From Acidimicrobiia bacterium (GTDB lineage: Bacteria; Acidobacteriota; Vicinamibacteria; Vicinamibacterales; UBA2999): DNA of 55,674 nucleotides. The position numbers were made by a program, and so were the translations under genes. Below the pieces are notes generated by a model. It was given only the letters and a program-made list of their open reading frames with translations, was not told where the DNA came from and ran no database searches. Where the stretch lies: positions 1 to 55,674 of the forward strand of contig VFZG01000005.1 in NCBI GenBank assembly GCA_016871275.1, written 5' to 3'. Shown one piece after another: positions 28,596 through 44,323 of the stretch. Position 1 is the stretch's first letter. Every line of letters starts with the position of its first letter.

Positions 28596-29969
28596 CTATT
28601 GTACTTGCACCAGATATCGCAGGAACACCGTCGCCAGGCCCAGGAACGAGGCAAACCCCACCACGTCCGTGAAGGTCGTGATGAACACCGACGAGGCCAG
28701 CGCCGGGTCCACCTTGAGCGCCTTCAGCCCCAGCGGTACCAGCGTGCCGGCCGTCGCCGCCACAAACAGGTTGACGACCATGGCCATGCCGAGCAGCAGA
28801 CCCAGCATGGGCTCGCCCCTGAACAGCCAGGCGACGCCGGCTGCCACCAGCCCCAGCACGACACCGTTGCCGAGACCGACCACGGCTTCCTTGATGACGG
28901 CCTTCCGCGCGCTGGACCACGACAACTCTCCGAGGGCGAGCGCGCGCACCACGACGGTCAGCGTCTGGGTGGCGGCATTGCCGCCCATCCCGGCCACGAT
29001 CGGCATGAAGATCGCCAGCGCCGTCACCTGCTGAATCGTCCCTTCGAACATCGCCACTACCGATGCGGCGACGAAGGCCGTCACCAGGTTGATGCCCAGC
29101 CACGGCAGCCGCTTGCGCAGCGACTCGACCGCCGGCGTGGCAATGCGCTCGTCACCCGACACGCCGGCCAGGCGCAACAGGTCTTCGGCAGCTTCGTCCT
29201 TGATGACGTCAATGACGTCGTCCACCGTGACAATGCCGACAAGCTTGTTCTCCTCATCGACAACAGGCACGGCGAGGAGGTTGTACGACGCCACCTGTCG
29301 CGCGACCTCTTCCTGGTCGGTGTCGACCCGGACGCTCGTCACCTCCGGCGTCATGATGCGCTTCAGCGGCGTCTCCGGCGACACCAGCAGCAGCCGGCGC
29401 AGCGACGTCACGCCCACAAGGTGCCGGCGCGCATCAACGACGTAGAGATAGAAGACCATTTCGACGTCGCGGGAGCCCTGCAGCGCGGTGATGGCCTCAC
29501 CCACCGTCACGTCCTCGTTGAGCGCGAAGACCTGCGGGTTCATGATGCGGCCCGCGGTCTGCTCGCCGTACTCGAGCAGGCTCTCGACCTGGCCCGACTC
29601 GCGCCGGCGCATCAACTCGAGCACCTCGACCGACAGCTCCTCCGGCAGGTAATCGATCAGCGCCGCCGCATCGTCTGATGGTATTTCTTGCAGTAACTTC
29701 GCAATTTCTTCCGCGGAGCGCCCGGTCAGCAGTCTGGCGCCTGCCTCCGGGCCCATTTCGCTGACCGTTTCCATGGCCAGCCGGCTACTGCGCTCGACCA
29801 GAAGTGAAAACATTGCCTGTCGCTCGGTGTCGAGCAGCGAATCAAATACCTGCGCAAGGTCAGCAGGATGCTGTTTCTGCAGCAGGTTCAGCAGATTGGC
29901 CGTCGCGCCAATGCGGAGGAGCCGCTTGACGGAGTCGAGCACGACGTCAATTCTGCGCTGCAGAGCCAT
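28596..29969 (-). CDS. mgtE: Magnesium transporter MgtE
   Basis: 457 residues, the standard layout. An N-terminal helical domain (about 1-130) is followed by two CBS domains (RIMNPQVFALNEDVTVGEAI and RIMTPEVTSV), a plug helix, and five membrane helices with the selectivity stretch PIVAGMGGNAATQT. MgtE lets Mg2+ in down its gradient and closes when cytosolic Mg2+ binds the CBS domains. It is inserted between era and recO, a pair that is usually adjacent. Confidence 0.95.
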   Translation of the reverse strand: MALQRRIDVVLDSVKRLLRIGATANLLNLLQKQHPADLAQVFDSLLDTERQAMFSLLVERSSRLAMETVSEMGPEAGARLLTGRSAEEIAKLLQEIPSDDAAALIDYLPEELSVEVLELMRRRESGQVESLLEYGEQTAGRIMNPQVFALNEDVTVGEAITALQGSRDVEMVFYLYVVDARRHLVGVTSLRRLLLVSPETPLKRIMTPEVTSVRVDTDQEEVARQVASYNLLAVPVVDEENKLVGIVTVDDVIDVIKDEAAEDLLRLAGVSGDERIATPAVESLRKRLPWLGINLVTAFVAASVVAMFEGTIQQVTALAIFMPIVAGMGGNAATQTLTVVVRALALGELSWSSARKAVIKEAVVGLGNGVVLGLVAAGVAWLFRGEPMLGLLLGMAMVVNLFVAATAGTLVPLGLKALKVDPALASSVFITTFTDVVGFASFLGLATVFLRYLVQVQ

Positions 29970-29992
29970 GAGATCCGCGCAATTTTACCAGC

Positions 29993-30907
29993 CTACCTGC
30001 GCTTTCCAGAAGGTAATCCCATCGAATCCAGCGTGCGCTCGTCGTCTCGCCACGACTCTTTGACCTTCACGTGGAGATCCAGGAACACCCTGGCGTCGAA
30101 GAACGTCTCGAGCTCTTTGCGGGCCGCGGTGCCGATTGCCTTGATGCGTGAGCCGGCCTTCCCTACCAGGATGGGCTTCTGGGTGTCGCGTTCGACGAGA
30201 ATCGTACAGTAGAAGCGCATCAACCCCTTCGGGTCGGGCTCTTCGAACCTGTCCACGACCACGGCGGTCGAGAACGGCAGTTCGTCACGCGTCTGTTGCA
30301 GGACCTGCTCGCGTACGAGTTCAGCAACGAAGAAGCGCTCGGGCTGGTCGGTCAGGTAGTCTTCCGGATAGATCGGATCACCGTCGGGCAGGTGCTTCAG
30401 CAGGACCTCTTCGAGTCGGTCCACGTTGTCGCCGGTCTTTGCCGACACCGGCACGAGATCTTCGAATCCCTCATCCTGGTATTCAACCAGTCGCGGCAGC
30501 AGCGCGGGCTTGTCCACCAGGTCCGCCTTGTTGAGCACGAGGACCTTCGGCACCTTCGAGCGCCTGACGAGGTCCAGCAGGAAACGATCACCGCCACCGC
30601 TCGGTTCGCTCGCATCGACGACGAGGGCGATCGCATCCACTTCGCCCATGGTGTCGAGCGCGGTATCGACCATCCGCACGTTCAGTCGGTGTAGTGGTTT
30701 ATGGATGCCTGGCGTGTCGAGGAAGACGATCTGTCCGATGGCCGGACTGCCCGACGGCCCGACAACCTGTTTGACGCCGACAATGCGATTGCGGGTGGTC
30801 TGCGGCTTATCCGAGACGATCGCGAGCTTCTGGCCGACGAGGCGATTGAGGAGCGTGGACTTGCCGGCGTTGGGCCGGCCCACCAGGGCAACGAAGCCGG
30901 ACTTCAT
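29993..30907 (-). CDS. era: GTPase Era
   Basis: 304 residues. G1 GRPNAGKST, G3 DTPG and G4 NKAD are present. The C-terminal KH domain has VGKAGSRIKAIGTAARKELE followed by LDLHVKVKESWR. Era binds the 3' end of 16S rRNA during 30S assembly. Its start overlaps the CorC gene stop by four bases (ATGA), and ybeY and phoH lie upstream in the same unit. Confidence 0.96.
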   Translation of the reverse strand: MKSGFVALVGRPNAGKSTLLNRLVGQKLAIVSDKPQTTRNRIVGVKQVVGPSGSPAIGQIVFLDTPGIHKPLHRLNVRMVDTALDTMGEVDAIALVVDASEPSGGGDRFLLDLVRRSKVPKVLVLNKADLVDKPALLPRLVEYQDEGFEDLVPVSAKTGDNVDRLEEVLLKHLPDGDPIYPEDYLTDQPERFFVAELVREQVLQQTRDELPFSTAVVVDRFEEPDPKGLMRFYCTILVERDTQKPILVGKAGSRIKAIGTAARKELETFFDARVFLDLHVKVKESWRDDERTLDSMGLPSGKRR

Positions 30908-32202
30908 GCCGGCTGTGCGGTGTCGGTCGTCACGGGTTCGAGGCGCTTCATGCGGACCCGCGTGATGCGGCGCTGTTCCGTCTCCACGACCTCGACGTCC
31001 AGCCCATCCATCTCGAGGTGCTCACCCACCGCCGGGACGCGGCCGAGGCGCGACAGCAGGAACCCGCCCACTGTTTCGAACCCGTGCCCTTCGATGTCGA
31101 CCTTCATCAGGTCCGCCATCTCTTCCACATGCACGCTGCCGCTGAACAGGAAGCTGCCGTTGCCCTCCTCGACAATCCGCTCGACCTCCACGTCGTATTC
31201 GTCACGAATCTCGCCGACGATCTCCTCGATCAGGTCTTCGACGGTGACGAGCCCCGCGGTGCCGCCGTACTCGTCGACGACGATCGCACTCTGCAGGCGC
31301 TTCCGCTGGAACTCCTTCAGCAGATCGGGCACGCGCTTGGTCTCGGGCACGAAGTGCGCCGCCCGCACGTATGGAGTAATGGGGCCGGTATGCGATGCGC
31401 CCGGTTTCAGCATCAAGTCCTTGATGAAGACGAAGCCTTGGACGTTGTCGAGCGTGTCCTTGAAGACCGGGATGCGCGAATACTGCTGGTCGCGGAACAG
31501 TGTCAGTAGCTGGGCCACCGTCGCATCGCTCTCGATCGCAATGATGTCGGGCCGCGGCGTCATCACCTCGCGGACCATGGTCTCGCGGAAGTCCGCGAGG
31601 TTGCGCAGCAGTTCGCGCGCCTGACCTTCCTGTGCCGCTTCAACGGTGTCCCCCGCTTCGGGCGCGTCACTCGCCGCCGGCGCGGAGGCCGCCTTTTCTG
31701 CCGGCGGCGGCGTGTGCGGCACATGCCCGTTGCCATTGCCATTGCCGCGTACCCCTGATGGATTGCGCCTGGCGCGGGGGGTGCCGAGCCGCAGCAACGC
31801 CGACGTCAGCGGCCGCAGCACGCCGGCGATCGCATCGAACGACGGCAGCAGCACGTCCAGGACACGCTCGGGATCCTGCCGCACGATCAGCAGCGGCATG
31901 AGATGCTCGCACGCCACGACGATGGCGACGATCGTCAGGACGAGGACCGGGAAACCGCCGGGCTCGACGCCGGTGACCCGGGCCAGCAAGGCCGCGGCAA
32001 GAATAGTGACGGCGCTGATCAGCAGCCGGACGGGAATGAACAGCCGGCGCGGATCTTCGAGGTACGGGCCCAGCGCATCATCGCGATCGGTGCGCTCGGC
32101 ATGGATGCGCAGCGACAGCCGCATCAGCGCATTGAACGCTGCTGAGACGGTGCCGAGGTAGGTGACGGCACATCCCAGGAGGAACAATAGAAGTGGAGTC
32201 AC
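30904..32202 (-). CDS. CorC/HlyC-family CBS-domain membrane protein
   Basis: 432 residues. An N-terminal membrane part (about 1-130, DUF21/CNNM-like) leads to two CBS domains (VMTPRPDIIAIESDATVAQL and VVDEYGGTAGLVTVEDLIEE) and a C-terminal CorC-HlyC domain. The family is linked to Mg2+/Co2+ efflux. A linker of about 60 residues between membrane and CBS parts is low-complexity: GNGNGNG from a six-base repeat (31730-31746), then Pro/Ala-rich. It is coupled to ybeY upstream and era downstream by four-base overlaps. Confidence 0.85.
   Translation of the reverse strand: MTPLLLFLLGCAVTYLGTVSAAFNALMRLSLRIHAERTDRDDALGPYLEDPRRLFIPVRLLISAVTILAAALLARVTGVEPGGFPVLVLTIVAIVVACEHLMPLLIVRQDPERVLDVLLPSFDAIAGVLRPLTSALLRLGTPRARRNPSGVRGNGNGNGHVPHTPPPAEKAASAPAASDAPEAGDTVEAAQEGQARELLRNLADFRETMVREVMTPRPDIIAIESDATVAQLLTLFRDQQYSRIPVFKDTLDNVQGFVFIKDLMLKPGASHTGPITPYVRAAHFVPETKRVPDLLKEFQRKRLQSAIVVDEYGGTAGLVTVEDLIEEIVGEIRDEYDVEVERIVEEGNGSFLFSGSVHVEEMADLMKVDIEGHGFETVGGFLLSRLGRVPAVGEHLEMDGLDVEVVETEQRRITRVRMKRLEPVTTDTAQPA
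31730..31746 (-). repeat. Six-base microsatellite in the CorC linker
   Basis: GGCAAT repeated nearly three times on the coding strand, giving Gly-Asn repeats in a disordered linker. Confidence 0.6.
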
Positions 32203-32669
32203 CGTTTGTTGTCTGTGCCGTATGTGCCTTCGGTGGCCCGTTCGATGAGCCCCCCCGGCAGACCGGCCTTCTTCCTCAACCGTGCTTCAGCCCGCGCCAT
32301 GCGGCCCTCGTCGGCGTCGTGATCGTAGCCCAGGAGGTGCAGGAGGCCGTGTAACGAAAGCACCTTCAATTCGGTGGCCAGGGAGTGCTTCGCACACTTG
32401 GCCTGCGCCGCGGCGACGCCCGCCGCAATGACGATATCCCCCAGAAAACCGCGGGAATCGGACGGGAACGACAACACGTCGGTCGCGTAGTCCTTGCCGC
32501 GGAACTGGCGGTTGAGCGATCGCATGCGCCGGTTCGACACGATGGCGATGCACAGATCGCCCTTGGCGCGGGCCGGCGCGATCCGCCTCAACCACGGCCC
32601 AAGCCCCTGTGTCTTGGCCCTGGAGGAGTCCGGGGACGTCACGCTAACGTGTAGACGGGCCGCTGCCAT
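32199..32669 (-). CDS. ybeY: Endoribonuclease YbeY
   Basis: 156 residues. The zinc-binding motif is [15 protein letters not shown], with all three His. The upstream strand [12 protein letters not shown] is also conserved. It matures 16S rRNA 3' ends and supports ribosome quality control. It overlaps phoH by 26 bases and corC by four. Confidence 0.94.
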
Positions 32670-33603
32670 AAGCGTCGTAGGCTTTCACAATCGCTTGCAC
32701 GAGTTTGTGGCGGACCACGTCGCGCTCGTCGAAATACACGAACGAGATGCCGTCGATCTTGCCGACCACTTCCATGGCCTGCACCAACCCCGACGTGCGC
32801 CCGCCAGGCAGATCGATCTGTGTGACGTCACCGGTGACCACCGCCTTGGAGCCGAAGCCCAAACGCGTCAGGAACATCTTCATCTGCTCGGTGGTGGTGT
32901 TCTGTGCTTCGTCCAGGATCACGAACGCGTCGTTCAGCGTGCGGCCGCGCATGAAGGCCAGCGGCGCCACTTCGATCGCGCCACGCTCCAGGTACTTCTC
33001 CGCCTTTTCGACGTCCAGCATGTCGTACAGCGCGTCGTAGAGCGGCCGCAGATACGGGTTCACCTTCTCCTGCAGATCGCCCGGCAGAAAGCCGAGCTTC
33101 TCGCCGGCCTCGACCGCCGGCCGCGCCAGGATGATGCGGCTGACCTTCTTGGCAAGCAGATAGCTCACCGCTTGCGCCATGGCGAGGTAGGTCTTGCCCG
33201 TCCCGGCGGGGCCGATGCCGAAGACGATGTCGTGCTGATCGATCGCTTCGAGATACCGCCGCTGGTTCGCCGACTTGGCGGCAATCCGACGCTTGCCGGC
33301 CGTGCGGAGCTGTCCGTCCTTCAGGAAGTGATCGCGAAGATCGACGTCCGTTTCGCCGGCCACCAGTTGCGCCGCCGTCTTGACGTCCCGGTCGGAAATC
33401 GAATGGCCCTGCTCGATCAGCTCACCCAGCTGTTCGACCAACCGCGCGACTTTCGCCGTGTTGCCCGCATCGCCTTCGACCAGGAGTTCGTGACCCTGGG
33501 TGCGGATGCGGACCTTCAGGAGGGATTCCAGTTGACGCAGGTTGTCGTCGTAGGCTCCAAACAGCGTGGAGACGCCAGCCTCGGGAACGGTGACCTTGCG
33601 CAT
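32644..33603 (-). CDS. phoH: PhoH-like ATPase
   Basis: 319 residues. An N-terminal KH-like part ([18 protein letters not shown]) precedes the P-loop ATPase domain, with Walker [12 protein letters not shown] and Walker [12 protein letters not shown]. The family block [19 protein letters not shown] is also clear. PhoH often travels with ybeY and is thought to act in RNA metabolism. ATG 33603 has no close Shine-Dalgarno; an AAGGAG lies 23 bases upstream. This looks like the first gene of the operon running down to 17759. Confidence 0.92.
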
Positions 33604-33697
33604 TGACGCCGTGCTGATGCTCGTATCTCCTTGTGCTACAGCGACTTAAGAAACATGACGCGCTCCAAGCCTAGCACGTTTCCGGTCCGACAGGCTA

Positions 33698-34213
33698 TCA
33701 GGCCACCAGCGACCGGGTCAGCGCTGCGGCTGGCATCGCTTTGCAGGCCGAGAGGTTCTGACCGGCCCACATCGCCGTGAAGTCGCCGATGCCCCCGGCT
33801 GCGATCACCGGAATTGGCACCGCGTTGACGATCTGCCGGACCAGCGCAAAGGTGCCGACCTGGTTATTGAGATCGTCCGAAAGAAACATCCCGCGATGGC
33901 CGCCGGCCTCGTATCCCTGTGCGATCACCGCATCGACGCCGTTGGCTTCGAGGTGCAACGCCTCGCTTCTCGTTGTCGCCGAGGACAGAATCTTCAAGCC
34001 CCAGCTCTTCACACGGGTCATCAGCGCCTTGGGTAGCAGCCCGAAGTGAACACTCACGACCGGCGGCTTGAATGCCCCGAGGACATCGGCGGCGGGTTCG
34101 TTGAACGGCACACGTTGGGGCCCTGGCTGGATCGATGAAGGGTCGACACCAAGCTCGGCGAAGCATGGTGCCAGCAGCCTGCGCCACTCGGCATCACGTG
34201 CCGCGGCCGGCAC
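33698..34213 (-). pseudogene. Nitronate monooxygenase remnant, N-terminus and internal segment lost
   Basis: A 171-codon frame that reads as the middle of a nitronate monooxygenase: DAEWRRLLAPCFAELGVD, VSVHFGLLP and QGYEAGGHRGMF (FMN-phosphate region), ending at IPVIAAGGIGD. It then passes directly to WAGQNLSACKAMPAAALTRSL, which matches the extreme C-terminus of the family. About 85 N-terminal residues and roughly 120 internal residues are missing, including the second phosphate-binding loop. The GTG that opens the frame is not a native start. The lost parts make activity very unlikely. Confidence 0.75.
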
Positions 34214-34358
34214 CGGCTGCGTCGCCGATCTTCACAAGCGAGGGCTCGTATCCGACCGGCGGATCCTTCCCGTCGTCGAGCCTGCAGCCGAAGGTGGAGA
34301 GCTGGACCTCTTCGAGCTGCAGCGTTCCGCACGAAAACAGCAGCGGCGTATCAGTGAG
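34194..34358 (-). pseudogene. N-terminal fragment of a gamma-glutamylcyclotransferase (AIG2-like) gene
   Basis: In the frame following the aspS stop, about 54 codons read TDTPLLFSCGTLQLEEVQLS, then FGCRLDDGKDPPVGYEPSLV and KIGD, ending at TGA 34194-34196. This matches the start of AIG2-like gamma-glutamylcyclotransferases. The substrate-loop Tyr of YGTL is Cys here. The codon before TDTP is CTC, with a GGAGG at the right distance upstream, so the original ATG seems to have mutated. The catalytic Glu region is gone: the nitronate monooxygenase remnant begins where it should continue, so one deletion probably fused the two. Confidence 0.65.
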
Positions 34359-34382
34359 GTCCCTCCGGTCGTCTCTCTTCTG

Positions 34383-36146
34383 TCAAATATTCTTGATCGA
34401 CAGTTCGCGGAGCTGCTTTGGATCCACCGTCGACGGCGCATTACACATCAAATCGACCGCCTGTGTGGTCTTTGGGAACGGGATCACTTCGCGGATCGAC
34501 GTCTCGCCAGCCAGCAACGCGCAGATCCGATCCAGGCCGAGCGCCAGGCCGCCATGCGGCGGCGTGCCGTACTCAAGCGACTCGAGGAAGAAGCCGAACC
34601 GGTTCCTGGCGTCTTCGTCCGACAGGCCGAGCAGGCGGAACACCTTCGCTTGCGTTTCGCGGTCGTGGATACGAATCGAACCGCCGCCCAGCTCCCAGCC
34701 GTTGAGAATCACGTCGTAGGCCTTCGCGAGCACTTTGCCCGGATCGGATTCGAGCATGTGCAGGTCTTCTTCGCGCGGCGCCGTGAACGGATGGTTCACC
34801 GAGTCCCAGCGCTTCTCGTCGGCGTTCCAGTTGAACAACGGAAAATCGGTGAGCCAGCACAGCTCCCACTTGCCTGCGGGGACGAGGTTCTCCTTCTTCG
34901 CCACCAGCAGACGGAGCTGGCCGAGAATCTTCGACGCGTGGTCAGGCGCACCCGAGGCGAGCACCAGGAGGTCTTCCTTGTTCGCGCCGGCCGCCTCCAG
35001 TGCCTTGCGGGCGCCCTCCTCGCCAATCGCCTTCGCCGACACCTGCACGCCTTCGCCCGTGTAGCGCGTGTAGATCAGCCCGCCGGCGCCCGCCTGCTTG
35101 GCCAGGTCCACCAGCTCGTCGACCTCACGGCGTGAATACTTCGCGGCGTTGGGAATCACGAAGCCGCGCACCGTGCCGCCATGTTCGACCGCTTCGCGGA
35201 AGATGCCGAACGGCGAGGCCTTGAACAGCGGCCCGAAGTCCTGGATTTCGAGGCCGAATCGAAGATCCGGCTTGTCGGAACCGTACTTCGATATCGCCTC
35301 TGCGTACGGCATGCGCCGGAACGGGCGCCGAATCCCGACGCCAATTTCCCGGAAGCACGCCGCCAGCGCGCCTTCGACGATCTCAAACACCAGCGGCGGC
35401 GTGGCAAACGACATCTCAAGGTCCACTTGCGTGAACTCCAGCTGCCGGTCGGCGCGCAGCGCCTCATCGCGGAAGCACCGCGCGATCTGCACGTAGCGAT
35501 CGAAGCCGGCAATCATCAGGATCTGCTTGAAGATCTGCGGCGACTGCGGCAGCGCGTAGAACTCGCCCGGATGCACGCGCGCCGGCACCAGAAAGTCACG
35601 CGCGCCTTCCGGCGTCGACTTGGTCAGAATCGGCGTCTCGATCTCGTAGAAGCCCTGCTCGTCGAAATACTTCCGCAGCGCCATGGTCAGGCGGTGGCGC
35701 AGGCCGATATTGTGCTGCAATTGCGGACGCCGCAGATCCAGATAGCGATACTTCAGCCGCGTCTCCTCCGACACGTTCTGGTCCTCGGCGATCGAGAACG
35801 GCGGGGTCTTGGCCTCGTTCAGGATCCGCAGCTCGCTCGCCCGCACCTCCACTTCGCCGGTCGGCAGTTCCTTGTTGATCGTGTCGTCGGAACGGCGTTC
35901 GACCTCGCCAATCACCGCGACGACGAACTCGGAACGGGCGCGCTTGGCGGTCTCGAGCAGCGCCTCGTTCCCTTCAATCACGACCTGCGTCAGACCATGA
36001 CGATCGCGGATATCGAAGAACAGCAGCGAGCCCATGTCGCGCACGCGATGCACCCAGCCCAGCAGGACGGCGCCTCTGCCGACGTCGGCAGGACGGAGCG
36101 CGCCGCACGTATGAGTTCGCGCCAGGGAGCCTAGTTGCTCAGCCAT
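34383..36146 (-). CDS. aspS: Aspartyl-tRNA synthetase
   Basis: 587 residues, the bacterial length. The N-terminal OB anticodon domain has LGWVHRVRDMGSLLFFDIRD. Class II motifs follow: motif 2 in FRDEALRADRQLEFTQVDLE and motif 3 GLALGLDRICALL. The GAD insert is present between them. It charges tRNA-Asp; whether it also charges tRNA-Asn cannot be told. Its ATG overlaps the hisS 3' end by 8 bases. Confidence 0.96.
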   Translation of the reverse strand: MAEQLGSLARTHTCGALRPADVGRGAVLLGWVHRVRDMGSLLFFDIRDRHGLTQVVIEGNEALLETAKRARSEFVVAVIGEVERRSDDTINKELPTGEVEVRASELRILNEAKTPPFSIAEDQNVSEETRLKYRYLDLRRPQLQHNIGLRHRLTMALRKYFDEQGFYEIETPILTKSTPEGARDFLVPARVHPGEFYALPQSPQIFKQILMIAGFDRYVQIARCFRDEALRADRQLEFTQVDLEMSFATPPLVFEIVEGALAACFREIGVGIRRPFRRMPYAEAISKYGSDKPDLRFGLEIQDFGPLFKASPFGIFREAVEHGGTVRGFVIPNAAKYSRREVDELVDLAKQAGAGGLIYTRYTGEGVQVSAKAIGEEGARKALEAAGANKEDLLVLASGAPDHASKILGQLRLLVAKKENLVPAGKWELCWLTDFPLFNWNADEKRWDSVNHPFTAPREEDLHMLESDPGKVLAKAYDVILNGWELGGGSIRIHDRETQAKVFRLLGLSDEDARNRFGFFLESLEYGTPPHGGLALGLDRICALLAGETSIREVIPFPKTTQAVDLMCNAPSTVDPKQLRELSIKNI

Positions 36147-37476
36147 GTCGAAGTATCTCTACCAGATTCGCGCGAGGCACCGATTGCTGCTCGCCAGTCT
36201 TCATATTCCTGATTGCGACGGTGCCGTTGGCCAGCTCGTCGCCACCGATGACCGCGACGAATGGAATGCCGCGTGCCGCCGCATACTTGAATTGCCGTTC
36301 GCCCACCTTCTTGCCGTCGTCCGAGGGTGACTCCGGGTAGAGCTCGACGCGCACACCGGCCCTGCGCAGCTCGGTCGCGAACTCGAGATAGAGCGCGGTG
36401 CGATTCGCGAACCACTGCACCACCATGACCTCCGCGGGAGCCGAGACGGCCGACTCCGGAAACATCTTCCGCTCGCCCATGACGACCAGGATCCGCTCGA
36501 GCCCCAGGGAAATCCCGCTGGCGGGGATGTGCTCTCCCGAGAACATCCCGATCAAACGGTCGTACCGGCCGCCGCCGCCCATGCTGCCCGCCAGATCGGC
36601 GACGCGAATCTCGAAGATCGGACCGGTGTAGTACGACAGGCCGCGCGCCAGGCTGCGATCCAGCACCAGGTGCGGCCCCGCGCTGGTGCTCTTGCACAGC
36701 GTGAATACCTGCTGCAGCTCCGCAATTCCTGCCTTGCCGTCGTCATTGAGCACTGCAGATTGTGCCGTCATCCAGGCATCGAGATCGGCCGGGGGCGTCC
36801 CATTCAGCTGTTCGAGCAGCGTCTCTGCGACATTTGGGGCCAGCCCCCGTTCGCTCAGCTCAGTGCGGACGCCATCGATGCCGATTTTGTCGGCCTTGTC
36901 CATGATCACCAGGGCCGGCCCGTGCAGTTCGGCGGGTACCCCGGCGTGCGCCAGGACGGCATTCAGCAGCTTCCGGTGATTGATGACGATCTGAAAGTCC
37001 GTGAAGCCCAGCGCCACGAACACATCCGCGGCGGCAGACAGCAGCTCGGCCTCGACCGTCATCGACGTCGAGCCAATCGCATCGACGTCGCATTGGTAGA
37101 ACTCGCGGAACCGACCCTTCTGCGGGCGATCCGCGCGCCACACCGGCTGCACCTGGTAGCGCTTGAAGAACTTCGGCAGCTTGCTGCGGTACTCGGCCAC
37201 CACCCGCGCCAGCGGCACCGTCAGGTCATACCGGAGCGCGAGATCGGCCTGCCCTGTCTCGGCGCCTTCTCCGCGCTTCAGGATCTTGAAGATCAGCCGA
37301 TCGCCTTCTTCGCCGTACTTGCCCTGCAGCGTCTCGAGGTTCTCAACCGACGGCGTTTCGAGCGGCTCGAAACCGTATTTCTGATACACGTCGGCAATCA
37401 CGCCGATGACGAACTGCCGGCGCCGCACGTCTTCCGGCAGGAAATCGCGCATCCCGCGTGCTGGTCCGGTATTCAC
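36139..37476 (-). CDS. hisS: Histidyl-tRNA synthetase
   Basis: 445 residues. It starts with the family N-terminus RGMRDFLPEDVRRRQFV. Motif 2 is in YQVQPVWRADRPQKGRFREF, and the histidine-specific loops are LARGLSYYTGPIFEI and GGRYDRLIGMF. A C-terminal anticodon domain follows. The start is GTG 37476, which overlaps the stop of the carbonic-anhydrase-like gene as GTGA. Both codons lie in a GAAGTGA heptamer at the end of a five-unit array. Confidence 0.95.
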   Translation of the reverse strand: MNTGPARGMRDFLPEDVRRRQFVIGVIADVYQKYGFEPLETPSVENLETLQGKYGEEGDRLIFKILKRGEGAETGQADLALRYDLTVPLARVVAEYRSKLPKFFKRYQVQPVWRADRPQKGRFREFYQCDVDAIGSTSMTVEAELLSAAADVFVALGFTDFQIVINHRKLLNAVLAHAGVPAELHGPALVIMDKADKIGIDGVRTELSERGLAPNVAETLLEQLNGTPPADLDAWMTAQSAVLNDDGKAGIAELQQVFTLCKSTSAGPHLVLDRSLARGLSYYTGPIFEIRVADLAGSMGGGGRYDRLIGMFSGEHIPASGISLGLERILVVMGERKMFPESAVSAPAEVMVVQWFANRTALYLEFATELRRAGVRVELYPESPSDDGKKVGERQFKYAAARGIPFVAVIGGDELANGTVAIRNMKTGEQQSVPRANLVEILRHG

Positions 37477-37507
37477 TTCTCACTTCTCTCTTCCACCTTT
37501 TCACTTC
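37473..37507 (-). repeat. Five heptamers supplying the stop/start junction of two genes
   Basis: On the minus strand the units are GAAGTGA, AAAGGTG, GAAGAGA, GAAGTGA, GAAGTGA. The last unit contains the TGA stop of the upstream gene and the GTG start of hisS, and the purine-rich units before it may act as ribosome-binding sequence. The array also encodes the last eleven residues (tail ending EERSEK) of the upstream protein. Confidence 0.78.
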
Positions 37508-38009
37508 CAGCGTAGTCGAGCCGGTAGGCCACGTAATTGTCGGCATACCACCGAATCTCTGCGACTTCTTCGTCGGTCAGCTGACGCCTCACGGTGCCCG
37601 GACGGCCCATGACCAGCGACCTTGCGGGAATCCGCGTGCCTTCGGTAATCAGCGTGCCGGCCGCGATGACGCAGTCAGGCTCGATGTGCACGCCATTCAG
37701 CAGCACCGCACCCATGCCAATCAGCACGCGGTCCTCGATGGTCGTGCCGTGCACCACCGCTGAGTGCCCCACCGTCACGTCATCGCCGATCAGCGTCGGA
37801 TGCGTGTCACGCATCACGTGCACCATGGTCAGATCCTGGATGTTCGTGCGCTTGCCGATGCGAATGTGGTTCACGTCGCCACGCAGGACCACGTTCATCC
37901 AGACGGATGATTCAGCGCCAATCTGCACGTCGCCGATCACCTGGGCGCTTTCATCGACGTACGCCGAGGCGTCAATGGTCGGCGTCACGCCTTTGAAAGG
38001 GCGAATCAT
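37473..38009 (-). CDS. Gamma-carbonic-anhydrase-like hexapeptide protein
   Basis: 178 residues. Left-handed beta-helix with hexapeptide repeats ([29 protein letters not shown]) and metal-ligand histidines in [11 protein letters not shown] and VGHSAVVHG, as in YrdA/PaaY/CamH proteins. Members are Zn/Fe/Co carbonic anhydrases or close relatives of uncertain activity. ATG 38009 overlaps the dcd stop by four bases. The C-terminal tail is encoded by the heptamer array shared with the hisS start. Confidence 0.85.
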
Positions 38010-38560
38010 ATCTTCGGCAGTGTGACGCCGCGCTGGGCCTGGTACTTGCCCTTCTTGTCCTGGTACGAAATCTCGCAGGGCTCGTCGCTCTGGAAGAACA
38101 GCACCTGCGCAATGCCCTCGTTGGCGTAGATCTTGGCCGGCAGCGGCGTGGTGTTCGAGATCTCGATCGTGACGTGGCCTTCCCACTCGGGTTCGAACGG
38201 CGTCACGTTGACGATGATGCCGCAGCGGGCGTAGGTCGACTTGCCCAGGCAGACCGTCAGGACGTCCCGCGGAATACGGAAGTACTCGACCGTCGACGCC
38301 AGCGCGAACGAGTTCGGCGGGACGATGCATTCATCGGCTGTGATATCGACGAACGACCTCGGATCGAAGTGCTTCGGGTCCACCACCGTGTTGAACACGT
38401 TGGTGAACACTTTGAATTCATTGCCAACCCGGCAGTCGTAGCCGTATGACGACACACCGTACGACACGACGCCCTGGCGGACCTGGCGATCCTCAAAGGG
38501 CGCGATCATCCCGTGCTCGAGCGCCATTTTGCGAATCCACTTGTCGGCCTTGATCGCCAT
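38006..38560 (-). CDS. dcd: dCTP deaminase
   Basis: 184 residues. The active-site segments are [20 protein letters not shown] and [11 protein letters not shown], giving the Ser, Arg and Glu that bind dCTP and activate water. The product dUTP feeds dTMP synthesis. Whether it also hydrolyses dUTP (bifunctional form) is not clear. It lies 33 bases after ndk and is coupled to the carbonic-anhydrase-like gene. Confidence 0.93.
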
Positions 38561-38593
38561 GAACCCTCGCAGTGAACCTTGGCCCGAACGCCC

Positions 38594-39004
38594 CTACAGT
38601 TCCATCCCTCGGAAAAAGTAGCCGAGCTCGAACGAGGCGGTCTCCGGAGCGTCCGACCCGTGGGTGGCGTTGTTGTCAATCGAGGCGCCGAAGTCCTTGC
38701 GAAGCGTGCCGGCCTCGGCCTTCGCCGGATCGGTGGCGCCCATCTGGTGACGCCACTTCCTGATCGCGCCGTCGGACTCGAGACACATGACCACGCAGGG
38801 GCCCGACGACATGAAATCCGTCAGGGCGCCAAAAAATGGCCGCGCTTTGTGCACGTAGTAGAAGCCTTCGGCCTCGGCCTTCGACATGTGAATCATGCGC
38901 ATTGCGCGAATCTGGAAGCCGTTGGCTTCAATGCGGGCGAGGATCTTCCCGGTGACGCCGCTCTTGACCGCATCTGGCTTGATGATTGCCAAGGTTCGTT
39001 CCAT
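38594..39004 (-). CDS. ndk: Nucleoside diphosphate kinase
   Basis: 136 residues. The opening [20 protein letters not shown] and the phospho-His motif [12 protein letters not shown] are diagnostic. It balances NTP and dNTP pools using ATP. The start is ATG 39004; a consensus TATAAT (39014-39019) lies 9 bases upstream, inside the end of pheA, so ndk probably has its own near-leaderless transcript besides read-through. Confidence 0.95.
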
Positions 39005-39013
39005 AACCGATCG

Positions 39014-39019
39014 ATTATA
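39014..39019 (-). promoter_or_regulatory. Consensus -10 box of ndk, near-leaderless
   Basis: TATAAT on the minus strand, 9 bases before the ndk ATG. It overlaps the pheA stop codon (39015-39017). Confidence 0.55.
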
Positions 39020-40175
39020 GCTGAGCCGCATGGTGGCGCGGCAGTTCGCGCGCCGGATAGCAGCCGAGGACCTTTACGAACGTCGTTCGTTCCGCCAGGC
39101 CGGCCAGGGCGGCCTGCATCCGCGGCGAGGCGATGTGCCCCTCGACATCGATGTAGAACACGTACTCCCACGGCGTCCCGGGCCGCGGCCGTGACTCGAG
39201 CTTGGTGACGTTCAGCCCCTCATCCGCAACGACGTTGAGGCACCGGACCAAGGCGCCGTGCTCATGCCGGGTCGAGAGCACCATCGACACCTTGGCGGCG
39301 ATCCGAGGGTCGCAGTCGGCCGGTGTCGCCGACACGACCACAAAGCGCGTGTAGTTCACGGCCTGGTTGGCGATCTCGCGCTTGAGCACGGTCAGCCCGA
39401 AGTGGGCGCCGGCCTCCTCGCTCGCAATGGCGGCCTCGGTGGGGCTCTTCAGGTCGCGAACATGACGCGCGGCCAGCGCGGTGTTGGCGGCGCTGACACC
39501 TTCGCAGTCCTTCAGCGTCGACAGGAACTCGCTGCATTGTGAGAGCGCCTGCGGATGCGAGTGAATCCGCCGCAGCGACTCGACGGGCACGTCGGCCACG
39601 CCCAGCAGGCAGTGGCGGACGTCCACGATCTCCTCGCCGACCAGCGCCAGGTTGAACCTTAGGAGGAGATCGTACGACTCGTACACCGATCCAGCCGTGG
39701 TGTTCTCCATCGGCAGCACCGCGCGATCGACCCGGCCCTCGATCACCGCCTCGAGCATCTCTTTGAAGCTGCCGTAGGACTTGAAGCCGACCGGGCGCTG
39801 CGCCACCGCGAAATGCTGCAGTGCCGCCTGGTGGCCGTAAGCCCCCTCGGTGCCCTGGAACGCCACGCGCAGTTCCTGCTCCGCATCCGCGTCGCGGGCG
39901 TGCAGCACATCCTGCTGCCGCCGAACCGAGTCGTCGAGGATTTCGCGGAAGATGCGGCGCACGAACGCCGGATCGAGGCCGAGCCGCTCGCCGTAGCTCG
40001 AGCGATGCTGCAGCAAGGCCGCTTCGCGGTCGGCATCGCGCACCGGTCCGTCACCGTCGGCCTTCACCTTGGCGATCTGCCGCGCCAGCCGTGCCCGCTC
40101 GCCGAGCGCCGACACCAGCACGCCGTCGATGTCGTCGAGACTCTTCCGTAAAGTCGCAAGTTCCTGGTTGCTCAT
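39015..40175 (-). CDS. pheA: Bifunctional chorismate mutase / prephenate dehydratase
   Basis: 386 residues. The N-terminal chorismate mutase helix bundle covers about 1-90 ([20 protein letters not shown]). The prephenate dehydratase domain has [23 protein letters not shown] and the catalytic TRF in [11 protein letters not shown]-terminal ACT domain includes [11 protein letters not shown] (ESRP motif), the allosteric Phe site. Together they turn chorismate into phenylpyruvate. ATG 40175 follows directly after the U-tract of an intrinsic terminator. The leader carries a Phe-rich ORF, so expression is probably controlled by attenuation. Confidence 0.95.
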
Positions 40176-40213
40176 AAAAACAAACGCCGCCTCAGGTGTC
40201 CCTGGGCGGCGTT
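40176..40213 (-). terminator. Intrinsic terminator (attenuator) ending at the pheA start codon
   Basis: Stem arms AACGCCGCC and GGCGGCGTT pair perfectly (9 bp). Inside them CAGG and CCTG add four pairs around a GACA loop with one bulged A. TGTTTTT follows and then the pheA ATG. In the antiterminated state the 5' arm can pair with 40257-40265 in the leader ORF. Confidence 0.88.
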
Positions 40214-40248
40214 CCTTGATCCGTTGAAAGCCTGTTCTGCGCTCGGAC

Positions 40249-40317
40249 CTAGACCCCGCCACCCACGGCACTAAAGCCGTCAATGGTAAACGGAGTGAAG
40301 GAGCGAACCAACCTCAC
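40249..40317 (-). CDS. Putative Phe leader peptide of pheA
   Basis: A 22-codon ORF from GTG 40317 to TAG 40249-40251. It contains three Phe codons in nine (FTPFTIDGFSAVGGGV, residues 7-22). A TATACT box lies 7 bases before the GTG, so the mRNA probably starts at the GTG. The codons for Val-Gly-Gly near the end contain the segment (40257-40265) that can pair with the terminator 5' arm. A ribosome stalled at Phe codons leaves that segment free, while one reaching the stop codon covers it. Seen: ORF, Phe codons, promoter box and pairing. Inferred: regulation by charged tRNA-Phe. Confidence 0.75.
   Translation of the reverse strand: MRLVRSFTPFTIDGFSAVGGGV
40257..40265 (-). promoter_or_regulatory. 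Antiterminator arm of the pheA attenuator
   Basis: TGGGTGGCG on the minus strand can pair with CGCCGCCCA at 40203-40211 (nine pairs with one U-G). That is the 5' arm of the pheA terminator, so the two structures exclude each other. Confidence 0.65.
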
Positions 40318-40324
40318 CAGCCGC

Positions 40325-40330
40325 AGTATA
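40325..40330 (-). promoter_or_regulatory. -10 box of the pheA leader
   Basis: TATACT on the minus strand, 7 bases before the leader-ORF GTG and 32 bases after the sucD stop. No clear -35 box. Confidence 0.55.
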
Positions 40331-40362
40331 CCCGAATCCTCAAGCGTCCGGCCTTCGAGCCC

Positions 40363-42407
<2,045 letters not shown>

Positions 42408-42416
42408 AAGAGGGAT

Positions 42417-42446
42417 AGTGTACAGGCCAAGAGGCGAATGGGCCAA
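42417..42446 (-). promoter_or_regulatory. sucCD promoter, near-leaderless
   Basis: -10 TACACT (42417-42422) and -35 TTGGCC (42441-42446), 18 bases apart, on the minus strand. The GTG start is 9 bases after the -10. The TTGGCC is one of two copies created by the repeat. Confidence 0.5.
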
Positions 42447-42456
42447 TAGGTGAATA
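42425..42456. repeat. Four octamers overlapping the sucC promoter
   Basis: Units GGCCAAGA, GGCGAATG, GGCCAATA, GGTGAATA read in tandem on the plus strand. They duplicate the TTGGCC that serves as -35 for sucC. Confidence 0.6.
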
Positions 42457-42494
42457 GCAGAACCACGGAGAGCCGCCGGCCGTAGAGACTGCTC

Positions 42495-42578
42495 ATGAGC
42501 ACTTTTCTCAAGGACCTGCGTTACGGCGTGCGGCAGTTGTGGCTAAGACCGGGCATGGCCCGGGCACGAGACTGCTGA
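42495..42578 (+). pseudogene. N-terminal scrap of an ADOP-type (MacB-like) permease gene
   Basis: Twenty-seven codons then [23 protein letters not shown] is the hallmark N-terminus of acidobacterial duplicated orphan permeases, which are normally about 800 residues. The rest is absent, and the next 14 bases lead into a second broken gene on the other strand. Confidence 0.65.
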
Positions 42579-42591
42579 CCCGGCCCCCAAC

Positions 42592-43113
42592 TCACCGGGC
42601 AGGTCCCATGCGCGTGACGACGCCGTTGTGAACGATCGCCAAGCCGTCCTCGAGGCCAGCCCAGACGCGGCCGGCGCCATCCTCGGCGAGGCTGCGAACG
42701 TCGTTGCCGCCCACGTCCTTCGCGCCGAACAACGACAACATGCCATCACGGTGGCGAGCCAGACCGTCACCGACTATACCCACCCAGACCGGGCCATCTG
42801 ACCCCTGCATCAGTGTGCGGACATTCGCGGATGGGAGGTCGAGAAGGATGGGTGTGAACCGGACGCCGTCGAAGCGAGACAGGCCAACGAACGATCCGAC
42901 CCAGAGGTATCCGTCGCCGCCGATCATCAATTCGGTGAGGGACTGGTCCGGCAGACCTTCGTCGGCGGTCCACTGCTCGACGGTGTAGCCGCGGGATGCG
43001 CCGGACAGAACCGGCCTGCCCTGTCCATACGAAAGGGTGTACGAGGCCAGCAGAACGACGGTCAGAAGCACGAGCCGGAGTAGTGTCCGTGACACGCGCA
43101 TCAAGGCAATCAT
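42592..43113 (-). pseudogene. N-terminal fragment of a two-component sensor with beta-propeller repeats
   Basis: 173 codons. The signal peptide (LLRLVLLTVVLLASYTLSYG) is followed by GYTVEQWTADEGLPDQSLTE and blades with GYLWVGSFVGLSRFDGVRF and GRVWAGLEDGLA, the start of Reg_prop-type hybrid histidine kinases (usually over 900 residues). It stops after about three blades; propeller remainder, kinase and receiver domains are missing. It meets the ADOP scrap tail to tail, suggesting one deletion removed both genes' 3' parts. Confidence 0.7.
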
Positions 43114-43119
43114 CGCTCG

Positions 43120-43308
43120 CTATTCCAGGACTGGCGAGCCTCGCCTCTGACCCGCGAGCATGTTCGATGCGGGACACCGCTTCGCTCGAGGCAGTGTTGG
43201 CTTTGCCCGGCTCCGCCGGGCGAAAGTCTTGAAGGGCCGGCCTGGAAACTTGACAGATTTGGCGGGAATCCGGCCCCTCAACACTCCAGGGCGTGTGCGG
43301 AACACCAC
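43120..43308. other. Non-coding block with hairpin, possible dispersed repeat
   Basis: Between the sensor fragment and mdh. It contains a strong hairpin, GCCCGG (205-210 past 43000) and CCGGGC around CTCCG, with flanking TTT/AAA pairs (43202-43225). A minus-strand frame of 62 codons is open across it, but the composition (very Arg/Pro/Lys-rich) argues against a protein. I recall similar text in unrelated acidobacterial intergenic regions, which suggests a dispersed element; this cannot be verified here. Confidence 0.3.
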
Positions 43309-43355
43309 TACTGCGAGGACGAATCGAGAGTCTCAGAACGCCAGCGTCAGTTGCA

Positions 43356-43380
43356 GCGCGGGGGGCGGAAGCCCCCGCGC
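43356..43380 (-). terminator. GC-rich hairpin after mdh
   Basis: GCGCGGGGG (43356-43364) pairs with CCCCCGCGC (43372-43380), 9 bp, beginning 10 bases after the mdh stop. No U-run follows. Confidence 0.55.
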
Positions 43381-43390
43381 TCCAGACGTT

Positions 43391-44323
43391 CTACACGCCA
43401 ATCACGTCGACCAGCTCCTTCACGGCACCGGCGGACTTGTTGAACGCGGCCTGTTCTTCGGCCGTGAGCTTGATCTGCACGACCTGCTCCACACCCTTCG
43501 CGCCCAGCTTGACCGGGACGCCCACAAACAGGTTGTTGATGCCGTATTCGCCCTGAAGGTAAACGGAGCACGGCATGATCTTCTTCTGATCCTTGAGGAT
43601 CGCCTCGACCATCAGTGCCGCCGATGCCCCCGGCGCATACCAGGCGCTGGTGCCCACCAGCTTGGTGATCTCGGCGCCGCCGTTAGCGGTGCGTTCGCAG
43701 ATCGCCTTGATACGGTCCTCGGGCAACAATTCCGTAATCGGAATACCAGCCACGGTGGTGTATCGCGGCAGCGGCACCATGGTATCGCCGTGACCGCCAA
43801 GGACGAACGACGAGATGTTCTCGACCGACACGTTCAGCTCCATCGCGATGAAGGTGCTCATGCGGGCCGAGTCCAGCACGCCGGCCATGCCGATCACACG
43901 CTCCCGCGGGAACTTCGACAGCTTGAACACCGCCTGCGACATCGCATCGAGCGGATTGGCCACCGGGACGATGATGCAGTTCGGGGAATGCTTGACGATC
44001 TCCGCCGTCACGTCCTGCATGATCCTGTAGTTCACGTTCAACAGGTCGTCGCGGCTCATGCCCGGCTTGCGCGGCATGCCGGAGGTGATCACGACGACAT
44101 CGGAGTTGGCGCTTTCGGCGAAATCCCTGGTACCCACGCCAATCACGCGCGACGCGGACCCTTCAATCGGGCACGACTCGTAGATGTCGAGCGCAACGCC
44201 TGCCGCTTTCGTATCCGCAATGTCAACCACGACCACGTCGGCGAGCTCTTTCTGCGCAATTGAACGCGCGACTGTTGCGCCAACATTTCCCGCACCGCCG
44301 ACAACCGTCACTTTCCGATTCAT
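43391..44323 (-). CDS. mdh: Malate dehydrogenase (LDH-like type)
   Basis: 310 residues. NAD-binding [13 protein letters not shown], substrate loop [13 protein letters not shown] with the Arg that selects malate over lactate, and catalytic His in [12 protein letters not shown]. It oxidises malate to oxaloacetate in the TCA cycle, next door to sucCD. ATG 44323 has a GGAG at 8 bases. It diverges from serA across a 198-base region with palindromes. Confidence 0.95.

Follow-up and report, generated by a model that had tools for sequence, protein, structure and literature searches.

The leader region of pheA

What lies in front of pheA in this genome? Within the window, by which we mean the whole analysed stretch of 55,674 nucleotides, pheA occupies positions 39015-40175 of the minus strand and encodes a chorismate mutase/prephenate dehydratase, as judged from matches to PDT (3e-52) and CM_2 (1.1e-21) and a weak match to the ACT domain (5e-05) that stays below the cut-off. 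It is the presumed target of the features upstream of it, which are all read on the minus strand and are preceded by sucD and sucC. A putative -10 box, TATACT (40325-40330), is followed after 7 nt by a GTG at 40317, which opens a leader ORF of 22 codons ending with TAG (40249-40317; VRLVRSFTPFTIDGFSAVGGGV) and lies 45 nt beyond the end of sucD. Three Phe codons stand in the frame of this ORF, at 40299-40297, 40290-40288 and 40275-40273. Its last codons contain the 5' strand of an antiterminator (TGGGTGGCG, 40257-40265), which pairs at all nine positions, one of them as G-U, with 40203-40211; the upper part of the antiterminator hairpin extends over 40214-40256. The strand so bound belongs to an arm (40201-40213) which the antiterminator has in common with a terminator, whose 3' arm (40183-40196) has counterparts at 14 other loci. 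The terminator stem comprises 13 bp with one bulged A, and its U-tract (TTTGTTTTT, 40176-40184) runs without a gap into the pheA ATG at 40175. A preliminary description of the same stretch had proposed the box with its 7-nt spacing, an ORF of 22 codons, three of them for Phe, the pairing of its end with the downstream arm and a terminator reaching the pheA start codon, and every one of these parts was recovered at the positions given here.

Folding of the 150-nt leader yields -70.3 kcal/mol (z -4.0), a value equalled by 0 of 200 shuffles. For the antiterminator hairpin (40266-40201) it is -30.3 kcal/mol (z -3.23), with one shuffle in 200 as good, and for the duplex between leader end and arm -21.1 kcal/mol, equalled by 2% of 1000 shuffles. 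The Phe count of the ORF, taken alone, has a p of about 0.07. A generic scan of 38000-43500 listed no two-hexamer sigma-70 promoter, and the hairpin of the pheA leader is absent from the three terminator-like sites it returned, probably on account of the bulge in the stem. With such a Phe count, and with neither promoter nor terminator in the generic scan, the claim made here rests on the comparison with relatives. No Rfam family reached its gathering score anywhere in the window, and the 10 matches obtained up to E 10 in two leader loci (L123, L010) each fall far below the gathering score of the family concerned. The covariance model of the Rfam Phe leader family, which we take to be RF01859, was unmatched both in the whole window at gathering score and in these two loci up to E 10, as were the T-box and the known riboswitch families in the window and the leader loci.

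Conservation among pheA loci

A search of 149 genomes for pheA gave 24 full-length loci, the window included, which were read over 330 nt upstream; four near-full-length matches (G017, G062, G076, G085; 34-38% identity) lie outside this set. A leader ORF with Phe codons, an antiterminator hairpin and a terminator occur together at 14 of the 24 loci, in three genera: five in the genus of the window (L001, L003, L005, L007, L009), four in g10 (L010, L011, L012, L018) and five in g21 (L013-L017), the leader starts of L007 and L018 having been set by hand. The ORFs carry 2-5 Phe codons each, and the peptides of the relatives include MRHTAFPFVFTFAGFTAGREAV, VTTMRCTAVFAAAVFFFAGRVTV and VSFAARFFNSFTNSGGFNSRPGSRV. 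The element is absent at L004 and L008 of the window genus and at L019-L025, where L019 has, by eye, an apparent remnant. At L006 (G003) the terminator is kept and the leader ORF is cut to three codons, GTG AAC GTC TAG, which reflects either a real loss, leaving pheA mostly terminated, or an error of assembly. L003 and L005 have low-complexity insertions between leader and terminator, by which the leader ORF of L005 is extended to 40 codons.

A covariance model, R1, built from 12 of the pheA leader loci, matches at pheA in 15 of 43 genomes of the family, that of L006 among them. Across the order, Vicinamibacterales, it matches 25 of 162 genomes, 15 of them at pheA and all of these in g1, g10 and g21; no further genome among the 162 has a match at this gene. 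As the model derives from 12 of its own pheA matches, only those at L003, L005 and L006 (34.6, 42 and 52.3 bits) are independent. Among the weak R1 hits in the family whose loci were opened, seven (L127-L132, L134) are leaders of aroDE and three (L142, L144, L147) leaders of his genes, others, including L143, L145, L146, L150 and L151, are by reading strong terminators after unrelated genes, and L148, L149, L152 and L153 contain nothing recognisable.

In the 14 leader ORFs, TTT and TTC make up 55 of 337 codons in frame and 14 of 646 out of frame (5/323 and 9/323 in the two other frames). The Fisher p for this excess, 1e-15, is overstated because the sequences are related; one leader per genus, combined, gives 4e-5, and the Phe count of L012 alone, like that of the window, a p of about 0.07. 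In 12 of 14 loci the end of the stop codon lies 24-30 nt beyond the last Phe codon, and in all 14 the stop and the terminator arm are 27-45 nt apart. The best fold pairs the 3' end of the leader with the terminator arm at 14 of 14 loci, in a hairpin that extends past the stop codon. Its z values range from -4.33 to 0.15 and are below -1.7 in 12 of the 14, the hairpin of L005 being no better than shuffles (z 0.15) and that of L009 weak (z -0.76). The duplex of leader and arm has a mean energy of -19.4 kcal/mol with its own partner, and when arms are swapped between genera the mean is weaker in five of six swaps; the leaders of g10 pair slightly better with the arms of g21 than with their own (-20.7 vs -19.5). 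Fewer than 5% of shuffles form as good a duplex at seven of the 14 loci, and at the other seven 6-19% do. The arms change together, as in L003 with GCUUCC in the arm and GGGAGC in the leader, and in four pairs near the terminator apex both partners have changed. The preliminary description had named in advance, as evidence against an attenuator, Phe codons or an arm without conservation in relatives; in fact these codons and the two pairing arms are retained amid sequence that otherwise drifts, which supports its attenuator reading. The ORF, its codon bias, the two mutually exclusive hairpins and their conservation are matters of observation.

At the upstream end the loci differ. A box resembling a -10 element (TATACT, TATAAT or TATGAT) precedes the leader start by 6-7 nt at six of six loci of the window genus that have a leader or a remnant of one (L001, L003, L005, L006, L007, L009), a distance that leaves no room for a Shine-Dalgarno site, and the leader ORF of this genus is probably translated from a leaderless RNA. 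The earlier proposal of a leaderless ORF may hold for the window genus, but in the other two genera the leader starts at the sucD stop, overlapping it in g10 (in L018 a later ATG is possible) and following it by 2-3 nt in g21. The contact of the U-tract with the start codon, from which an additional influence on initiation had been suggested, is real in the window, but the corresponding distance is 10-60 nt at the 14 other loci with a terminator, so that a second effect of this kind would be a peculiarity of the species.

A probable ribosome-mediated attenuator and its rivals

How is this arrangement to be understood? Four of the features by which attenuators are recognised are found here: by comparison, a short ORF with codons for the end-product amino acid; an intrinsic terminator before the first structural gene; an antiterminator that uses the 5' arm of the terminator and begins in the last codons of the leader; and a geometry in which a stall at the key codon frees the antiterminator strand and a ribosome at the stop covers it. 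When the ribosome is placed at the last Phe codon, with the nascent RNA reaching to the terminator loop, pairing of the arm with the leader end amounts to 0.47-0.82. When it is placed at the stop with the full RNA, the terminator reaches 0.74-1.00, the arm still being partly paired with the spacer (0.00-0.73). Once complete and at equilibrium, the RNA favours the terminator, with the antiterminator at 0.00-0.11, which would be natural for a device acting during transcription; the mechanism thus needs the order of transcription.

We weighed three other explanations. The hairpin could serve sucCD as an ordinary operon terminator, the ORF upstream of it being a chance frame; this notion draws on the 45 nt between sucD and the leader start, on the presence of sucD upstream of pheA at 17 of 24 loci, among them all 14 with the element, and on the unexceptional Phe count of the window ORF. 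However, a hairpin ending at the pheA ATG would leave pheA without a promoter; at L003 and L005 the element keeps its place next to pheA, with sucD about 610-640 nt away from it; at L004 sucD directly abuts pheA and there is no hairpin; and neither the in-frame Phe excess nor the conserved antiterminator would be explained, which makes this origin very improbable. We give just as little credence to a leader ORF acting mainly on translation, with its stop or the hairpin gating the access of ribosomes to the pheA start. The window, with a U-tract that touches the ATG and no Shine-Dalgarno site between them, would suit such a role, but the 10-60 nt at the 14 other loci do not, and a GC stem with a U-tract has the form of an intrinsic terminator. 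Least probable of all is direct recognition of Phe or tRNA-Phe by the leader RNA, acting as a riboswitch or T-box to which the ORF is irrelevant. While a structured leader with a terminator would be common to such an RNA, an in-frame codon bias is not expected of it, and the Rfam search returned no family at gathering score and, in the leader loci, only matches far below it.

We are thus largely confident that the pheA leader is a classical ribosome-mediated transcription attenuator sensing charged tRNA-Phe. The steps from promoter use and translation to stalling, termination and a response to Phe are inferred from the sequence, and would proceed as follows. Transcription would begin just upstream of the leader ORF, which would be translated probably without a Shine-Dalgarno site. 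With ample Phe, the ribosome would reach the stop codon and mask the last codons of the leader, leaving the 5' arm of the terminator free; the terminator would then form and RNA polymerase stop before pheA. With Phe scarce, the ribosome would wait at a Phe codon, and the last codons of the leader could pair with the arm as it emerges, so that the antiterminator would block the terminator and pheA would be transcribed. Support for an attenuator at pheA also comes from the same genome, which has leaders fitting the genes behind them elsewhere, one ahead of the aroDE-trp cluster that contains codons for Phe, Tyr and Trp, and one with His codons before hisI-hisG.

Leaders of aromatic and histidine genes in the order

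The leader before aroDE in the window genome, MRSRAVTNRTVPTFAPYAAWWYWCPSAEANRSV, combines Phe, Tyr and Trp codons with a terminator and stands at the head of a cluster on contig C1 (about 28729-39000; L179, L311). The genes follow in the order aroDE-trpE-trpG-trpD-trpC-(trpF)-trpB-trpA-chorismate mutase-DAHP synthase-prephenate dehydrogenase, where trpF is named by position only and the aroD half and tyrA are below curated cut-offs. The trpE start lies 98-113 nt after the aroDE match in nine of nine genomes of the genus, and the cluster from aroDE through trp to tyrA is probably one transcript. A protein search matched aroDE in 41 of 43 family genomes. From 34 loci taken (L154-L183, L128, L129, L130, L132), 32 were used, without L166 and L172, where the protein match starts only within the coding sequence. 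At all 32 readable loci aroDE is preceded by a leader ORF that contains Trp and Tyr codons and by a terminator, and the ORF as called also contains Phe at 27 of them. Aromatic codons account for 206 of 990 in frame and 68 of 1916 in the other frames, an excess that arises partly by construction, since the choice of frame relied on a W/Y motif.

The corresponding model, R2, matches 142 of 162 order genomes and 82 of 86 genera, the genomes of the 32 source loci included. Twenty hits, from 20 genomes in 14 other families, were inspected, and all 20 show a W-rich leader frame and, by reading, the start of an aroD-like protein after the hit. In the phylum, R2 matches 41 of 42 members of the order and 17 of 354 others, 13 of the latter over only part of the model. 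The aro terminator stem covaries beyond shuffles, with 14 double-change cells, a count that 0 of 500 shuffles reach. In the column-shuffle test the aro antiterminator has 85.7% of its cells paired, which is no excess over the shuffles (85.3%; 137 of 500 do as well); 16 of 500 shuffles equal its covariation score, and slid controls are 42-54% paired.

Before hisI-hisG the window genome has a His-rich leader, VHHAHHNQHHRSPNGPAGACA (contig C31; L284, L313). Among 42 genomes with a hisG match, 30 loci were looked at, and a His-rich leader and a terminator, the latter by reading, lie upstream of hisG in 29 of the 30, the window genome included; no leader was seen at L267, which is cut by a contig end. 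The names hisI and hisG are by profile in the window genome only. Outside the order (L254, L257, L258), Trp-rich leaders occur before trpB-like genes and a His-rich one before a hisZ-like gene; the trpB-like fragment has no Pfam match and the hisZ-like one matches the histidyl-tRNA synthetase domain, so both names rest on reading.

Upstream of pheS, leuA and ilvB (7, 8 and 8 loci of the genus, 420 nt each) no pair of an ORF over threshold and a terminator-like hairpin was found, and the pattern thus looks selective. The pheS of the window genome (L317) is preceded by an ORF containing three Phe but lacks a terminator, L320 has a hairpin without an ORF, and several leuA and ilvB loci have hairpins without a leader ORF. 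At the window-genome leuA (L328) there is no attenuator; the divergent gene upstream resembles, by eye, a LysR-type regulator.

This acidobacterial lineage thus seems to control other aromatic genes and histidine genes in a way similar to pheA. For the order, we rather favour two tiers of leader-peptide control, in which an F/Y/W leader, opened by a shortage of any of the three amino acids, would govern a supraoperon aroDE-trpEGDCFBA-aroQ-aroF-tyrA, with genes of the common pathway and of the Trp and Tyr branches, and a Phe-only attenuator, in three genera, would govern the stand-alone pheA. Our literature search found no described counterpart of an attenuator integrating three aromatic amino acids.

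How does this compare with known systems? The pheA attenuator of enteric bacteria (pheL), as portrayed in the available part of PMC11802643, likewise has a leader peptide before a chorismate mutase-prephenate dehydratase and is controlled by charged tRNA-Phe; the acidobacterial leader differs in having no Rfam match, in belonging to a different phylum, and in starting at a -10-like box (window genus) or at the sucD stop (g10, g21). The nearest precedent that we found for the F/Y/W leader is the AroR leader of Corynebacterium glutamicum, which has Phe-Tyr-Phe before aroF, heading an aromatic-pathway operon, and for which Tyr supply is reported to be without effect (Neshat et al. 2014, per the same part of PMC11802643). 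By comparison with what is said there, the acidobacterial leader adds tandem Trp codons and heads an aroDE-trp-aroQ-aroF-tyrA cluster. Large aromatic clusters with predicted attenuators are likewise described from Enterococcus faecalis and Streptococcus pneumoniae, whose Phe/Tyr gene clusters are supraoperons thought to be under attenuation; the accessible portion of the source (PMC1173090) mentions no leader peptide that combines codons for Phe, Tyr and Trp, unlike the acidobacterial case. A precedent for a leaderless leader ORF is provided by trpL of Sinorhizobium meliloti, whose leader transcript has the start codon of its peptide at the very 5' end, according to an extract of PMC7298713; that system is alphaproteobacterial and concerns Trp, and the acidobacterial start is judged leaderless from the spacing of the -10-like box. 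Outside Proteobacteria, comparative work of a similar kind has predicted Trp attenuators of this class in Actinobacteria, for whose His and Phe operons the section of PMC1262725 at hand reports no conserved RNA structures upstream. Among the full-text matches listed, with most subscription journals outside this scope, none described a pheA attenuator or a multi-aromatic one in Acidobacteria. The pheA leader is thus a probable case of a known class of device, in a phylum for which the literature search found no report.

For the biology of these bacteria this means that attenuation can be assigned to particular amino acids and genes in Acidobacteria, with enough conservation for testing. That a single genome carries three such leaders suggests attenuation as one of the principal ways in which the group controls amino-acid synthesis, and with the F/Y/W leader it can be tested whether three signals are integrated by one ribosome.
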